Part shown: piece by piece, positions 3,645 through 21,755 of the stretch
Position numbering within the stretch: position 1 is the stretch's first letter
Layout: each line of letters opens with the position of its first letter
DNA from: Holophagaceae bacterium
GTDB taxonomy: Bacteria > Acidobacteriota > Holophagae > Holophagales > Holophagaceae
Direction of reading: 5' to 3'
Assembly (NCBI GenBank): GCA_025357545.1
Contig: JANXPB010000107.1
Span: forward strand, 1-39,622
DNA: 39,622 bases
Made by a program: the position numbers and the translations under genes
The notes under the pieces: generated by a model
The model's input: the letters and a program-made list of their open reading frames with translations, nothing else
The model's database searches: none
Told to the model about the DNA's origin: nothing

Positions 3645-4061
3645 TTACTGGGTCACGTGGATGACGCCGGTCATGCCCAGTCCGCAGTGGGGAGTGCAGT
3701 AGAAAGGCACGTCCCCGGTCACACTGGGCATGACGACGTCCGCGGAAAAGCCTGCATTCTGGACGCCTGTGTTCAAGGTGACGGGTCCGCCTGGCGTGCA
3801 GCCCGAGCCCACCACGACGCTATGACCCCCGGCCGCCCAGGAAAAGGTGACCGTGGCCCCGGTCTTGACGCTGAGGCTGCTAGGGGAGAAGAGGAACCCA
3901 CCGGATCCCACCGAGATGACGTTGGGATTCGGATTGGGATTCGGGGCAGGGTTGGAACTAGAGCCACCTCCACCACAGGAAAGCAGCAACAGAGTGGCCG
4001 CAGGCAGGAGCAAGGCCCGCCGCGAAAGGCAGAAGCCAAGACGATTGGCAAGTCGGTGCAT
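3645..4061 (-). CDS. cupredoxin (plastocyanin-like) lipoprotein
   Basis: 138 aa, ATG at 4061 with GGAG seven bases upstream. The N-terminus is basic-hydrophobic with a lipobox-like LLLLSC followed by GGGG and an Asn-Pro repeat linker. The rest is a single cupredoxin domain: VISVGSGGFLFSPSSLSVKTG start, GGHSV (first His ligand), then FYCTPHCGLGM carrying Cys, His and Met ligands spaced as in plastocyanin. It is clearly paralogous to the C-terminal domain of the gene downstream, sharing LNTGVQNAGF, DVPF and GMTGVIHV. Role: periplasmic or surface blue-copper protein, probably an electron carrier or copper-binding protein. No partner oxidase or reductase is encoded nearby. Confidence 0.88.
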   Translation of the reverse strand: MHRLANRLGFCLSRRALLLPAATLLLLSCGGGGSSSNPAPNPNPNPNVISVGSGGFLFSPSSLSVKTGATVTFSWAAGGHSVVVGSGCTPGGPVTLNTGVQNAGFSADVVMPSVTGDVPFYCTPHCGLGMTGVIHVTQ

Positions 4062-4154: not shown

Positions 4155-4604
4155 TCAATTAACGGTGACGGTGCCCTTCATGGCGCTGGAATTGCAGTGG
4201 GAAGTACAGAAGAAGGCGTAGGTGCCCGGGGTGTTGAAGGTGTGGGTCATCGTGGACCCGGCGCTCTGCAATCCATTGCTGTTGAATTGGCTGTCCGCGC
4301 TGCACCCCGCTCCGGACTCCACAGAGTGGCCGGAGCCCTGCCAGATCCAGGTGACCATGGTGCCCCTGGTGACAGTGAGGGCGACCGGGTTGAAGGCATT
4401 GACCGGGCCACCGGGGTCGCCATAGCCCCCGCCGCCGTTGTTCCCGCCCACGTAGATGGTGTTGGGCAGGAGGGTGGATGAGGACATGGAACTGGACCCG
4501 CCCCCACCCCCGCCGCAGCTGAGCAGGAGGCCCACCGTGCAAACCGGCACCAGGCTCCAGCCTCGGAGACCCTTCATGAACCTCGATGAATGAGCGTTTT
4601 CCAT
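4155..4604 (-). CDS. cupredoxin lipoprotein, first gene of the cluster
   Basis: 149 aa from ATG 4604, chosen because GGAGGC lies five bases upstream; an in-frame ATG at 4652 has no such site. Signal peptide and lipobox-like GLLLSC, then a Gly/Ser linker. The cupredoxin domain has GSGHSVESGAGC (His ligand plus the extra Cys) and FFCTSHCNSSAM, so Cys, His (+3) and Met (+9). The Cys-Met spacing is one residue longer than in its two neighbours, which may alter the copper site. NTIYVGG and FNTPGTYAFFC are typical cupredoxin strands. It faces the MocR-type regulator across a 165-bp divergent gap and probably starts the cluster's transcription. Confidence 0.85.
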   Translation of the reverse strand: MENAHSSRFMKGLRGWSLVPVCTVGLLLSCGGGGGGSSSMSSSTLLPNTIYVGGNNGGGGYGDPGGPVNAFNPVALTVTRGTMVTWIWQGSGHSVESGAGCSADSQFNSNGLQSAGSTMTHTFNTPGTYAFFCTSHCNSSAMKGTVTVN

Positions 4605-8462: not shown

Positions 8463-9506
8463 ATGAACGATCAACCCGACTCTTCATCGAACGCGCCGGC
8501 GGCCCTTCCTGTGGCCCGCCTGCTGCAGATCGTCCATTTCCAGACCGAGATCGCCAAGACCCGGCTGAATCTCGCCCACGTGATCGAGCGCTCAGCAAGC
8601 CTCGCCCAATTGCTCACCGGGGCTGATGGCGCGGTGGTTGAGATGGTGGAGGACAAGGAGATGGTCTACCGCGCCGCAACCGGCATCGCCGAGAAGCATC
8701 TCGGCCTGCGGCTCCCGCGGCAATCCAGCCTCTCGGGCCATTGTGTCGCATCGGGCGAGGCGATCTCCTGCCTGGACTCCGAATCGGGTCCCAGGGTGAA
8801 CCAGGAGGCCTGCCGTGCTGTGGGCCTGAGGTCCATGGTCGTGGTGCCGCTGCGGTATGAGAGCACTGCCATCGGTGTGCTCAAGGTCCTGTCCGCCCGC
8901 CCCCACGCCTTCAGCTGCGCGGACACCCAGACCCTCGCGGTGATCTCCGAGGTCGTCGCGGCGGCCATGGCCCACGCGGGAGAGCATGGCGCTCAAGTGG
9001 AAGAGACAAGGTCCCTCTACCTCCGCGCCACGCAGGATCCGATCACCGGCCTGGGGAACCGCGCCCTCTTCGAGGACCGCCTCCACCAGCTGCTGGCCCT
9101 GGCCCGCCGCGCCAAGGAACACCTCGGCCTCGTGATGATGGATATGGACGGCCTGAAGCAGATCAACGACACCCACGGGCATCGGGCCGGTGACGAGGCA
9201 ATCCGCACGTTGGGCCACCGCCTCCGGGCCGCCACCCGGGCCACGGATATTTCCGCCCGCCTGGGCGGCGACGAATTCGGGCTGATCCTGCCCGGCGTGC
9301 AGAACCGGGAATCCGCCCAGCGCACCGCCATCAAAATCGCGGAACAACTGCAGGGGCCCTTCGCCTTCGAGGGCCACGAGCTCACGCTGGGGGTGAGCGT
9401 GGGCCTAGCCGTGTTCCCCGAAGATGCGGAGGTCCAGGAAGCCCTTATCGACGTCGCCGATCAGGCCATGTACGAGGCCAAGCGCGCCCGGAAAGACCAG
9501 CGCTGA
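8463..9506 (+). CDS. GAF-domain diguanylate cyclase (GGDEF)
   Basis: 347 aa from ATG 8463 (MNDQPDSS); the frame is open further upstream but that part is not domain-like. Residues about 40-180 form a GAF sensor domain (GADGAVVEMVE, SLSGHCVASGEAISC, SMVVVPLRYESTAIGVLKV). Residues about 190-345 form the GGDEF domain (DPITGLGNRALFEDRL, MDMDGLKQINDTHGH). The catalytic motif GGDEF (268-272) is intact, and an I-site RATD (259-262) lies five residues before it, so the enzyme should make c-di-GMP from GTP and be feedback-inhibited. No transmembrane segment, so cytoplasmic. The GAF ligand is unknown. A leader hairpin may affect its translation. Confidence 0.92.
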   Translation: MNDQPDSSSNAPAALPVARLLQIVHFQTEIAKTRLNLAHVIERSASLAQLLTGADGAVVEMVEDKEMVYRAATGIAEKHLGLRLPRQSSLSGHCVASGEAISCLDSESGPRVNQEACRAVGLRSMVVVPLRYESTAIGVLKVLSARPHAFSCADTQTLAVISEVVAAAMAHAGEHGAQVEETRSLYLRATQDPITGLGNRALFEDRLHQLLALARRAKEHLGLVMMDMDGLKQINDTHGHRAGDEAIRTLGHRLRAATRATDISARLGGDEFGLILPGVQNRESAQRTAIKIAEQLQGPFAFEGHELTLGVSVGLAVFPEDAEVQEALIDVADQAMYEAKRARKDQR

Positions 9507-9666
9507 GGGTTTGCACCCACGGGGGGGGGCCCAGGTGCCAATCCACTCATCCCAGCCCTTCGCGTTAGATGCGATGAAAATCGCCAGGCTTTGTGATTTT
9601 TCCTTCGGCCCCGCGAATCATGTAGTAACGGCGACCTCACCCCCGGGGCGCGCTTCAAGGGCCTCC

Positions 9667-10176
9667 ATGTCTTCCACCGCCGACCACGACCCCTGCCTGG
9701 CCCTGCTCGACGCCCATAAGGGAATTCTCTACAAGGTGGCGAATGCCTACTGCCCGCGGGCGGAGGATCGCCACGACCTCGTCCAGGAGATCTCCCTCCA
9801 GGTCTGGCGCTCCTATCCCCGCTTCGACGGCCGCTGCAAGTTCTCCACCTGGATGTACCGCATCGCCCTCAATGTGGCCATCAGCTTCCATCGCCAGGAG
9901 CGGGCGCACCACAACCTCCTCTCGGGCGATGAGCACCTGCTGGACCTTCCCGCCCCCAGCGACACCACCCCAACCGCCGACGACATCCAGGCGCTCCATC
10001 GCTTCATCGCAGGGCTCGACGACCTGAACAAGGCCCTCGTGCTGCTTTACCTGGATGACCACAACCACCAAGAGATCGCCGAGATCCTCGGCATCAGCGC
10101 CACGAACGTCGCCACCAAGATCGCCCGCATCAAAGCGCGCCTCCGCCAGGACTTCACGTCCGGCCCTTCCAATTGA
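9667..10176 (+). CDS. ECF-type RNA polymerase sigma factor
   Basis: 169 aa from ATG 9667 (MSSTADHD); the frame extends upstream, but the conserved part begins here. Region 2: LLDAHKGILYKVANAYC, DLVQEISLQVWRSYPRF, FSTWMYRIALNVAIS. Region 4: DLNKALVLLYLDDHNHQEIAEILGISATNVATKIARIKARL with a helix-turn-helix. The length and the lack of regions 1 and 3 fit an ECF sigma factor. The next gene begins within 12 bp of its stop and encodes a membrane protein, the usual place for an anti-sigma factor. It may control itself and the exported proteins downstream. The target promoter is not identifiable here. Confidence 0.88.
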   Translation: MSSTADHDPCLALLDAHKGILYKVANAYCPRAEDRHDLVQEISLQVWRSYPRFDGRCKFSTWMYRIALNVAISFHRQERAHHNLLSGDEHLLDLPAPSDTTPTADDIQALHRFIAGLDDLNKALVLLYLDDHNHQEIAEILGISATNVATKIARIKARLRQDFTSGPSN

Positions 10177-10187
10177 AAGCGCACCCC

Positions 10188-10850
10188 ATGGAACTCGACG
10201 ACTTCAAATCCGCCTGGCAGGCCCTGAATCAGAAGCTGGACCAGCAGACCGCCCTGAACCTCCAACTCCTGCGGGAAAGCCGCGCGGAGAAGGCCCGCCA
10301 CGGCCTGCGGCCGCTGGCGTGGGGACAGGCGATCCAGATGACCCTCGGCGCCCTCCTCATCCTGTTCTCGGCCGGGTTCTGGTCGAACCACCGCCAGGTG
10401 CCGCACCTGCTGTTCACGGGCCTGCTCATGCATGCTTACGGACTGGCCATGGTGCTTTTCGGCGTGCGCATGCAGGTGCTCATCGTCCGCATCGACTTCG
10501 GCGCCCCGGTGCTGGACATCCAGAAGCAGCTGGCCCAGCTCCGCCGCTTCTACGTGGTGGGCGGCCTTTGGATCGGCCTGCCCTGGTGGCTATTGTGGAT
10601 TCCTTTCATGGTGATGGTCTTCGGGAGCCTCGGCGTGGACATCTACGCCCGGGCGCCTCAAATCATCACCATCAATGTCGCCGCCTGCCTGGTCGGGTTG
10701 ATCTTGACCCTTCTCTTCATCTGGTGGTCCAAAGGCCGCCCGAAGCTCGCCAAAATGCTGGAGAATTCCGCTGCCGGCACCAGCCTGAACAAGGCCCAAC
10801 GCTTGTTGGACGAGATCGCCCGCTTCGAGCACCCGGACACTCAGGACTGA
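10188..10850 (+). CDS. four-TM membrane protein, putative anti-sigma partner
   Basis: 220 aa from ATG 10188 (MELDDFKSAWQALNQKL); a TTG at 10173 overlapping the sigma stop is an alternative start. A soluble N-terminal helix of about 45 residues is followed by four hydrophobic segments: MTLGALLILFSAGFW, LLFTGLLMHAYGLAMVLFG, LPWWLLWIPFMVMVFG, and IITINVAACLVGLILTLLFIWW. A charged C-terminal tail of about 40 residues follows. Proteins that begin M(E/D)LDDxKxxW and follow ECF sigma genes are common and often unannotated. No zinc-binding anti-sigma motif (HxxxCxxC) is present. The anti-sigma role is therefore inferred from position and architecture. Confidence 0.8.
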   Translation: MELDDFKSAWQALNQKLDQQTALNLQLLRESRAEKARHGLRPLAWGQAIQMTLGALLILFSAGFWSNHRQVPHLLFTGLLMHAYGLAMVLFGVRMQVLIVRIDFGAPVLDIQKQLAQLRRFYVVGGLWIGLPWWLLWIPFMVMVFGSLGVDIYARAPQIITINVAACLVGLILTLLFIWWSKGRPKLAKMLENSAAGTSLNKAQRLLDEIARFEHPDTQD

Positions 10851-18513: not shown

Positions 18514-20337
18514 ATGTCAGACGGGCCACGAGCACCCTTCAAGGAGAGATCGGTCGGAGTTCAGGAATATCCCGGGCGGAGTGGCAACTCCGGCCTGGCG
18601 GGCTTCTTCGCCACCTTAATGTGGGCCAGCGGGCCTTTCGTCGCCCAGGCCGCGGCGATGCAAGCCCCGCTCAGCTCTCCGGCTCCCGCTGTGCCCGTTC
18701 CACCGACCCTCCCGGGCGCCATGACCCAGGTGCAGAGCGGCCACTTTGAGGCTGCCCGGGACCTGCTGCTGGTCATCACCAAGGCTCAGCCCAAAAATCC
18801 GGTGGCCTGGCGGCTGCTCGGCTCTTGCGGCTTGAAACTAAAGGACTACCCCGGCGCCATTGAGGCCTATGCCAAGGCCCTGGCCCTGAATTCCCAAGAC
18901 GCCACGGCCCTCTACAACACTGGCGTGGCCTACGCCCTGCAACAGAAAAAGGACGAGGCCTTCCGTTTCCTCACCCAGGCCAAGGCCACCCATCGCATGG
19001 ACATGACCACCGCGAAAACCGATGCGGATCTTGAAGGGCTGCGCCCAGACCCGCGCTTCGAGGGCCTACTGCCCAAACCCGAAGACTACGCCCATCCCTT
19101 CGTGGAGCCCGTGAAGATCCTGCGGGAATTCGATGGGGAAGGCCCCAACGACCAATTCGGCTGGATCGCCCGGGACCTCGGCGACGTGGATGGCGATGGC
19201 GTCCACGACTTCGTGACCTCGGCCCCCACCAAGGCGATTGGGGGCGCTGCGGCGGGTCGGGTCTACGTCTATTCCACAGGCAAGAACAAACTGCTCTGGT
19301 CCGTGGACGGCCAGCCCGGCGACAACCTGGGCAACGGCATCGAGTGCGCCGGCGACACCAACCACGATGGCATTCCCGACGTGGTGGCGGGCGCACCCGG
19401 CGGGCCCGAGACCATCGGCCAAGCCTACATCTACTCCGGCAAGGATGGTCAGCAATTGCACGCCTTCAAGGGCGAACACAAGGGCGACAGCTTCGGCCAG
19501 CACGTCGCCACCGCCGGGGACGTGGACCAGGATGGCTACGCGGACGTCATCATCGGCGCGCCGGGGAACAACGCGGGCGGCGCCGCCGCAGGGCGGGCCT
19601 ACGTCTACTCCGGCAAGGATGGCCACCTGCTGCTGACCCTCACAGGCGAAAGGGCCGGGGATGCCTTCGGCAGCACCGTGGGCGGGGCCTCCTGGGGCGG
19701 CACCCGCACCTTCCTCATCGTGGGGGCCCCGGGGGCCGGGCCCCGCCACACGGGCCGGGTCTATGTCTACGACAGCCTCTCCGGCATGCCCAAATTCGTC
19801 ATCGATTCCGACGAGACCGGCAACGCACTGGGGGGCATGTTCGTCTCGGTGCTGGGCGACGTGGACGGCGACGGCGTACCGGACATCTACGCCTCGGACT
19901 GGTCCAACACCGCCAAGGGCCGCTCCACGGGCCGCGTGTACGTGCATTCCGGCAAGGATGGCCACCGCCTCTTCACCTTTACCGGTGAAACCGCGGGCGA
20001 GGGCTTCGGCACTTGCCCCGCGGTGGTGGGCGATGTGGACGGCGACGGCCACGCGGATCTCCTGGTGGGAGCTTGGCAATTCGCGGGTGCGGCCCTCTCC
20101 GGCGGCAAGGTCTACCTCTATTCCGGCAAGGACGGCCATCTGATGCAGACCTACACCGGCCGCACCCCCGGCGACACCCTGGGCTTTGACGCCGTGGGCT
20201 TGGGGGACGTGGACGGCGACGGCATCGTGGACTTGCTGCTCACCTCCGCCTGGAGCAGCGTCCACGGCTTTCAGTCCGGGCGGGTGTTCGTGGTGTCCAG
20301 CGGAGTACGGCCGCCCAGGAACCCTTCCCCACGCTAG
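18514..20337 (+). CDS. exported TPR protein with seven-bladed FG-GAP (integrin alpha-like) propeller
   Basis: 607 aa. A hydrophobic stretch at 26-47 (GLAGFFATLMWASGPFVAQAAA) suggests export, with an unusually long 25-residue N-region. Residues 65-165 are TPR repeats (AMTQVQSGHFEAARDLLLV, NPVAWRLLGSCGLKLKDYPGAIEAYAKAL). Residues 214-597 form seven FG-GAP blades of about 55-58 aa. Blades 1-3 and 5-7 carry calcium-loop motifs such as DVDGDGVHDF, DTNHDGIPDV and DVDQDGYADV. Blade 4 has lost its loop (GGASWGGTRTF). Seven blades make a closed propeller as in integrin alpha chains. YxxSGKDG recurs in four blades. Likely a calcium-stabilised surface adhesion or scaffold protein. ATG 18514 has GAGG upstream. 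Confidence 0.87.
   Translation: MSDGPRAPFKERSVGVQEYPGRSGNSGLAGFFATLMWASGPFVAQAAAMQAPLSSPAPAVPVPPTLPGAMTQVQSGHFEAARDLLLVITKAQPKNPVAWRLLGSCGLKLKDYPGAIEAYAKALALNSQDATALYNTGVAYALQQKKDEAFRFLTQAKATHRMDMTTAKTDADLEGLRPDPRFEGLLPKPEDYAHPFVEPVKILREFDGEGPNDQFGWIARDLGDVDGDGVHDFVTSAPTKAIGGAAAGRVYVYSTGKNKLLWSVDGQPGDNLGNGIECAGDTNHDGIPDVVAGAPGGPETIGQAYIYSGKDGQQLHAFKGEHKGDSFGQHVATAGDVDQDGYADVIIGAPGNNAGGAAAGRAYVYSGKDGHLLLTLTGERAGDAFGSTVGGASWGGTRTFLIVGAPGAGPRHTGRVYVYDSLSGMPKFVIDSDETGNALGGMFVSVLGDVDGDGVPDIYASDWSNTAKGRSTGRVYVHSGKDGHRLFTFTGETAGEGFGTCPAVVGDVDGDGHADLLVGAWQFAGAALSGGKVYLYSGKDGHLMQTYTGRTPGDTLGFDAVGLGDVDGDGIVDLLLTSAWSSVHGFQSGRVFVVSSGVRPPRNPSPR
19435..20135 (+). repeat. DNA-level repeats inside the FG-GAP gene
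   Basis: TCCGGCAAGGATGG occurs at 19435-19448, 19609-19622 and 19948-19961, and with one change (GACGG) at 20122-20135. The spacings are 174, 339 and 174 bp; 174 bp equals 58 codons, one propeller blade. This points to blade duplication with recent sequence similarity. Confidence 0.8.
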
Positions 20338-20411
20338 ATCCTCCGGCCCGGCCCGGGACCATGGCGGCTCCCGGGCCAAGCCAGCGGAGGCGGTCCCTGA
20401 CCGCCAAGCAT

Positions 20412-20525
20412 TCACTTCATTTCGGCCTGTGCCCAGCGTTCACCTCGCATATTGTCGTCATTGGTCGGCCAGAAGGATGTGTCGATCAAAAATCCCCAAA
20501 GCATGAACTGAACAAAATCGTACAT
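20412..20525 (-). CDS. possible 37-aa small protein
   Basis: ATG at 20525 is preceded by GGAGG six bases upstream, one of the better ribosome sites in the window. The peptide begins MYDFVQFMLWGFLIDTSFW and ends in a charged tail (ERWAQAEMK). The first half is hydrophobic enough for a membrane or amphipathic helix. No family is recognised. It sits downstream of the AT-rich island when read on the minus strand, so that island could serve as its promoter. Short length makes chance plausible. Confidence 0.4.
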   Translation of the reverse strand: MYDFVQFMLWGFLIDTSFWPTNDDNMRGERWAQAEMK

Positions 20526-20726
20526 TGTGTGCCTCCACCCGAACGGCCCGCACCGAAGGCGAGCCTGAGCTGCAGGCCTGGGTTCCCTTTCGGGGCCGGA
20601 CCGATCGTCCCGCGCCATCCGAACATATGGCGGACCTAGCCGCGCACGTGGTGCTCCTGGTTCCAGCGGCCAAAACTGGCCACCACCAAACAGCACATTC
20701 TGCACCGATGAATAAATCTTTCATTT

Positions 20727-20742
20727 AAAGGTTTTAACCTTT
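20727..20742. repeat. AAAGGTT / AACCTTT palindrome
   Basis: Perfect seven-base arms with a TT centre in the AT-rich island. It may be a regulator binding site; hairpin formation with a 2-nt loop is less likely. Confidence 0.5.
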
Positions 20743-20749
20743 GCCCATG

Positions 20750-20813
20750 AGAGGTATAAATCGAATTAAATCATAATGATCGTGATACATCATCATTTCG
20801 ATTTATGACCTCT
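20750..20813. repeat. 64-bp inverted repeat in the AT-rich island
   Basis: The left arm AGAGGTATAAATCGAA (20750-20765) pairs with the right arm TTCGATTTATGACCTCT (20797-20813) with one bulged base. The interior is also partly self-complementary (ATCATAATGAT ... ATCATCAT). It lies 51 bp before the CPBP protease start. Candidate operator, structured leader or small RNA; which one cannot be decided from sequence. Confidence 0.65.
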
Positions 20814-20864
20814 GTAAACACTTTCCTGCGCGCTTCGTAGCTCTAGATCACCTCGGAGTTCCCT

Positions 20865-21755
20865 TTGCAAACGATCTTCTTCAATCAGGACCAGCGCCTG
20901 CGTAACGGCTGGTGGGCGCTCGGTTTCGTGCTGCTGGTCGCGGCCATTGGGTATGGAGCCGGGTTTGCCATCCGGGGGGTAACCCGGTTGGGGGCTTCCA
21001 AGGCATGGTTTGAACCGGCGGCCTTCCTCATCACGCTACTGGCCACGTGGATCTGCCTGAAGCTCCGCAAAGAACCCCTCACCGGAGTCGGGTTTGCGCT
21101 GGACCGGCGCTGGTGGCAGGAACTTGGTTGGGGCACTGTCGCAGGTGCCGCGGTGATGCTCGCGGCGGCGGGCCTGGCTTGGGCCGCCGGGGGCGTCCGC
21201 TTCGAACTGGACCCGCTGCGCAGCTTGAAAACCCTCAGCTACGGTTTCTACATGTTCCTGTTCGTGGCCTGCTTCGAGGAAAACGCCTTCAGGGGGTTTC
21301 TCTTCCAGCGGTTGCTGGACGGCACCGGTATGTGGGTCACCCAGATCGCGCTGGCGCTGTTCTTCGCCTTCGCCCACTGGGGGAACCCTGGCATGCACGG
21401 CGCCACCAAGGCCTGGGCTACGGTCAACATCGCCCTGGCCTCAGTGTTCCTGGGCCTGGCCTACCTCCGCACCCGCAGCCTGGCCCTGCCCATCGGCATC
21501 CACCTGGGCTGGAACTGGACCCAGGGCAACGTCCTGGGCTTCGGCGTCAGTGGCAATGCCGAGCATGGCTGGGTGCGCCCTCTCTTCCAAGGCAAGGCCG
21601 AGTGGATCACCGGCGGCAGCTTCGGCCTGGAGGCCGGCATCTGCGGCGTGGCGGCCGTGCTGATCGGCATAGCCCTGCTCTGGAAGTGGAAGGGCTCCGC
21701 CGGCGCGGCGGCCCAGGTACAGCCCTCGGATTCATGGGTGGCCGAAACGGCCTGA
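20865..21755 (+). CDS. CPBP-family intramembrane metalloprotease
   Basis: 296 aa; TTG start at 20865 with GGAG upstream. Six to eight hydrophobic segments. The three CPBP (ABI/Rce1-like) motifs are present: EENAFRGFLFQRL with Glu138, Glu139 and Arg143; FAFAHWGNPG with His171; and HLGWNWTQG with His213 and Asn217. These form the glutamate- and histidine-based active site of the family, whose members process or protect membrane proteins and peptides in the inner membrane. The C-terminal tail (GSAGAAAQVQ) is soluble. The upstream AT-rich region with inverted repeats probably holds its promoter and suggests specific regulation. Confidence 0.9.
   Translation: MQTIFFNQDQRLRNGWWALGFVLLVAAIGYGAGFAIRGVTRLGASKAWFEPAAFLITLLATWICLKLRKEPLTGVGFALDRRWWQELGWGTVAGAAVMLAAAGLAWAAGGVRFELDPLRSLKTLSYGFYMFLFVACFEENAFRGFLFQRLLDGTGMWVTQIALALFFAFAHWGNPGMHGATKAWATVNIALASVFLGLAYLRTRSLALPIGIHLGWNWTQGNVLGFGVSGNAEHGWVRPLFQGKAEWITGGSFGLEAGICGVAAVLIGIALLWKWKGSAGAAAQVQPSDSWVAETA

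Follow-up and report, generated by a model that had tools for sequence, protein, structure and literature searches.

The AT-rich island of the window (the whole stretch of 39,622 nucleotides analysed here) may be lineage-specific regulatory DNA that lies directly upstream of a conserved ECF-type promoter driving a CPBP/Rce1-like protease gene. We hold this reading with about even confidence. The sequence-only reading had offered three options, namely an operator for a dimeric regulator, a structured RNA or the trace of a small mobile element. Regulatory DNA fits best because the long inverted repeat ends at the base immediately preceding the conserved ECF-type promoter. The features discussed below are collected in Table 1.

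Table 1. Features in and around the AT-rich island (positions in the window; a dot marks features without a strand)
Feature	Position	Strand	Remarks
Possible 37-aa ORF	20412..20525	-	GGAGG before ATG
AT-rich island	20700..20813	.	114 bp, GC 0.32; found in own genome only
Imperfect short palindrome ATGAA-N7-TTCAT	20708..20724	.	weak stem-loop
Palindrome AAAGGTT-TT-AACCTTT	20727..20742	.	16 nt
64-nt inverted repeat	20750..20813	.	16-pair arms, one bulged G, 31-nt loop
ECF-type promoter box GTAAAC-N16-CGTA	20814..20839	+	conserved place in relatives; fits AAC/CGT rule
CPBP/Rce1-like intramembrane protease gene (PF02517)	20865..21755	+	TTG start

Composition and inverted repeats of the island

The abrupt AT-rich segment that had been described in a GC-rich window proved to be the most AT-rich stretch of that window. 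GC content per 100 nt reaches its minimum of 0.29 at 20711 in 10-nt steps (0.28 at 20707 in 1-nt steps), while the second-lowest place in the window stands at 0.47 and the window mean is 0.66. We also scanned a sample of the organism's own genome (232,542 bases, made up of the window and 14 of 20 sampled stretches; the other six consist mostly of N and were excluded). GC per 100 nt was 0.42 or lower at 16 places in this sample, and 0.29 or lower at two, one of them the island itself.

Another AT-rich island of the same genome (L103:4428) contains a 36-nt repeat with perfect 14-nt arms (4481-4516) shortly ahead of the TetR-family gene at 4544, and this repeat is likely the operator of that gene. 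Its presence implies that AT-rich islands with repeats are normal in this genome, and it speaks for the regulatory reading. Taken alone, the island studied here is an ordinary kind of feature.

Folded on the plus strand, the island forms three consecutive stem-loops: a weak one at about 20708-20724, the 16-nt palindrome and the 64-nt inverted repeat. The last of these had been described as a 64-bp inverted repeat whose 16-base arms match with one bulge, and this description holds. Its arms, AGAGGTATAAATCGAA and TTCGATTTATGACCTCT, score 13, which makes it an outlier against dinucleotide shuffles (maximum 10; 0 of 150 reached 13). The fold z of the repeat region is -3.95 on the plus strand and -5.04 on the minus strand, with equally good folding in 0 of 200 shuffles. 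Additionally, a perfect 10+10 arm pair with a loop of at most 45 was attained in 15 of 2000 shuffles of the island. In real sequence the repeat is uncommon, neither unique nor extraordinary: seven repeats scoring at least 13 (loop of at most 45), this one included, were counted in the 232,542 bases, so that equal or better ones occur about once per 33 kb.

Two other elements of the earlier description were present in the sequence and turned out to be weak. Of 2000 dinucleotide-shuffled versions of the island, 131 contain a 7+7 palindrome with a loop of at most 4, the type of the 16-nt one, and the pairing inside the 64-nt repeat, which had been noted as a partly palindromic interior, was matched by 253 and 632 of 2000 shuffles. 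Both thus lie at chance level. The island is also enriched in five-base arms: we counted 8, a number reached by 14 of 2000 shuffles, with sub-arms of the longer palindromes included in the count. Two tiny peptides are readable within the hairpin.

These figures bear on the view that the island is AT-rich intergenic filler without function, its inverted repeat having arisen by chance or by replication slippage. We regard this as unlikely. It would agree with the genomic frequency of comparable repeats and with the chance-level palindrome and interior pairing, but it does not account well for a score that no shuffle reached, for the rarity of the perfect arm pair among shuffles or for a repeat that abuts the promoter box exactly.

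Inverted repeats were also seen elsewhere. One of 65 nt (3670-3734, score 12) lies within a minus-strand ORF of the window (3645-4061), and in the same genome AATCCGTGTGAATCCGTGG-like repeats are clustered at L104:4880-5760, along with long inverted repeats.

The putative promoter box and the protease gene

The assignment of the gene next to the island as a CPBP protease was confirmed by a domain search (PF02517, E 6.1e-17). Its best named match, 71% identical, belongs to a MAG of the Holophagaceae; next come Geothrix strains and variously labelled MAGs. Viral copies of the gene were searched for and none was found. On the other side of the island, the upstream TPR and FG-GAP protein terminates at 20337.

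The promoter box beside the repeat had been overlooked in the sequence-only reading. It begins 51 nt ahead of the protease start codon, and the final base of the inverted repeat directly abuts its first base. The general rule for ECF sigma-factor promoters, as given in PMC4153023, places AAC at -35 and CGT at -10. The box carries both and, like such promoters, combines them with a 16-nt spacer and a conserved place before a membrane-protein gene.

For the comparison with relatives we selected 15 loci and read both strands. Besides the window, 10 of the 14 relatives examined carry TAAAC-N16-CGTA at -51 or -52, which amounts to a fixed place before orthologous genes; it is absent at the protease gene in four. 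Seven relatives of this comparison belong to both genome collections, and three of the ten that bear the box (L005, L007 and L008) are close to one another. A count over 205,608 bp, both strands, in 25 named loci (the 26th, L058, is from Bacteroidales and was left out) gave seven occurrences of the pattern, every one at this place. These seven are in genomes already counted among the ten, so they add specificity and no further conservation. In the neighbouring genus, recognised as Geothrix because L036, L039 and L040 are identical in sequence to genomes in it, the stricter form GTAAACGATCN12CGTA was present once each in 8 of 47 genomes (reversed control 0), and all eight places lie 51 nt ahead of a match to the protease gene.

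In a sample of 192,920 bp of the own genome, read on both strands, TAAAC-N16-CGTA had 0 occurrences. Over the whole genome, in a search limited to the exact and 1-mismatch forms, the exact GTAAAC box was found once, as compared with 4 times for the reversed control, and the 1-mismatch form 5 times, as compared with 14. These counts lie below the control, so no regulon is visible, and the box is significant by its conserved place only, not by rarity. In this respect it is unlike ECF sigma-factor promoters: the exact box is a single site per genome, and we did not find several sites that include the promoter of the sigma-factor gene itself.

A wider survey took plus-strand loci only and read 44 of 56 (all but L005, L006, L010, L017-L020, L023, L025, L027, L029 and L032). 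Among them, 25 entries, duplicates kept, have an identity under 54% and represent paralogs or distant relatives; none of these has TAAAC-N16-CGTA, and six of the 25 carry the looser CTCAAC-N16-CGTA. The latter lies upstream, at a similar place, in the distant CPBP relatives L043, L045, L050, L016, L021 and L030, and may represent a variant form of this promoter.

We also asked whether the promoter-leader region folds as a conserved RNA. An alignment of nine sequences gave a fold of -0.4 kcal/mol with compensatory change in 0 of 6 pairs; the sequences were drawn from box-carrying genes, and the invariant columns partly reflect that choice. With no conserved leader structure in this alignment, we prefer to read the box as a DNA promoter.

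The island does not belong to the conserved promoter-protease unit. Its sequence was found in no relative examined (own genus, class and the ten box-bearing relatives). The 99 nt preceding the box have a GC content of 0.59-0.72 in these ten, as opposed to 0.30 here, and a fold z between -2.49 and +1.62, as opposed to -5.02 here; some relatives, L013 and L007 among them, have their own GC-rich stems before the box. The protein of the closest relative is only 71% identical, so the absence of the island there gives no date for it. In one Geothrix MAG, the orthologous protease gene is preceded by an 80-nt stretch with a GC content of 0.225 (L035:3732-3811), which adjoins a diverging ORF; by eye this stretch is unlike the island in sequence.

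Searches for copies and for an RNA

A genome search for further copies, which had been proposed as a check on the island, matched only the island itself in the 3,273,613 bases (239 contigs) of its own genome. The same was true of five genomes of the genus. In 93 genomes of the class we obtained the island and four matches of 24-31 bp, all four inside long open frames. Phages and plasmids gave no match, and the island was not found in viral contigs, where one exact pattern was tried. At up to 2 mismatches the 16-nt palindrome occurs only once in the own genome. The arm pattern occurs there without mismatches only at this place; with 2 mismatches it occurs at 12 other places, and the reversed control at 35.

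One of the class matches (29 bp; single-genome E 6.4e-4) falls inside a phage-integrase-family gene (PF00589) of the genome G005. Translated in that gene's phase, the match reads KLLAFAHE in G005 and KVLTFAHE in the window. We count this match as chance because 93 genomes were searched.

These results concern above all the main rival of a regulatory reading, an inert insertion or relic peculiar to this lineage (for instance a very small non-autonomous element or AT-rich foreign DNA) that happens to lie just upstream of the promoter. We consider it possible, with a distinctly lower probability than regulatory DNA. An insertion would explain the abrupt AT-rich composition, the long inverted repeat and the absence from every relative examined. 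Against it stand the lack of any further copy in the own genome, the genus, the class, phages or plasmids, the flanks of the repeat, which differ by eye (CATG before, GTAA after) and show no target-site duplication, and the existence of the other AT-rich islands in the genome sample.

Like MITEs and REP-like elements, the island is short and has terminal inverted repeats. Unlike them, it is single copy, with no target duplication seen and no relatives found. With no copies in the own genome, genus, class, phages, plasmids or viral contigs (one pattern), a mobile-element family was rejected. An attC-like or dif-like site was also rejected, by eye, since the hairpin lacks such core sites at its flanks.

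A structured RNA would take the form of a minus-strand hairpin transcript, serving for example as antisense RNA or as the 37-aa ORF's leader. The possible small minus-strand ORF pointed out earlier does exist as an ORF (20525-20412) with a ribosome-binding site, and the minus-strand fold of the repeat, together with a weak minus-strand sigma-70-like site at 20818-20789 (1 found, 0.3 expected), would suit such a transcript. We nevertheless judge it improbable. No Rfam family matched at its gathering score, the best over the island being SurC with 21 bits where 80 are needed, and a known RNA was rejected on this ground. An intrinsic terminator (a G+C-rich stem followed by a T run) was rejected too, with 0 found in 20340-20900. 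The ORF has no Pfam family and no relative beyond itself in 77 family genomes (best other E 0.10), so a conserved small ORF was likewise rejected, and no relative carries the hairpin sequence.

Candidate regulators and possible control of the protease gene

Regulatory DNA, the reading we prefer, may act in more than one way. An operator for a dimeric regulator, including one with a single site, is possible. A simple operator is disfavoured because the palindrome and the arm are single copy and because no regulator gene adjoins the island among the domain-searched ORFs. The palindrome, unique at up to 2 mismatches, does not recur near a regulator or co-regulated genes. The two arms of the 64-nt repeat have their centres about 47 bp apart, which does not resemble a simple dimer site.

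UP-like contacts or upstream regulators act at AT-rich repeats that end just before a -35 element. Like UP elements and upstream operators, the island places AT-rich DNA and inverted repeats right before the -35 element; unlike them, it is not conserved in relatives and is without a known binder. We suppose that the box would be in use as an ECF promoter for the protease gene. The AT-rich repeats might then be bound by a regulator or, in UP-like fashion, by the alpha subunit of RNA polymerase, and so modulate the promoter. Alternatively, they might bend or melt the DNA to the same effect. A bolder version, in which the inverted repeat would be a lineage-specific DNA/RNA switch (a cruciform or loop-forming site) controlling an ECF-type promoter dedicated to the CPBP protease gene alone, seems to us a long shot.

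The box resembles the sigma-W type. The window contains an ECF-like sigma-factor gene with Sigma70_r2 and Sigma70_r4_2 domains (9424-10176), 10.6 kb from the island. Sigma70_r4_2 is the usual region 4 of ECF factors; it has 8 matches in the own genome, 7 of them over the curated cut-off and one of these seven in the window gene, with a profile that also matches archaeal controls. The ORF that follows the sigma-factor gene (10173-10850) has no Pfam family, looks by eye like a membrane protein and is perhaps its partner. The 160 nt that precede the listed start of the sigma-factor gene, whose true start may be further in, hold no AAC-N15-18-CGT box, and no link between this gene and the protease promoter was seen. 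A literature search, with subscription papers mostly outside it, found nothing on the protease promoter or on a link between CPBP proteases and a sigma factor.

Of more use than the island is the conserved ECF-type box next to it, which would tie the CPBP/Rce1-like protease of the Holophagaceae to control of the envelope-stress type, apparently through one site per genome.
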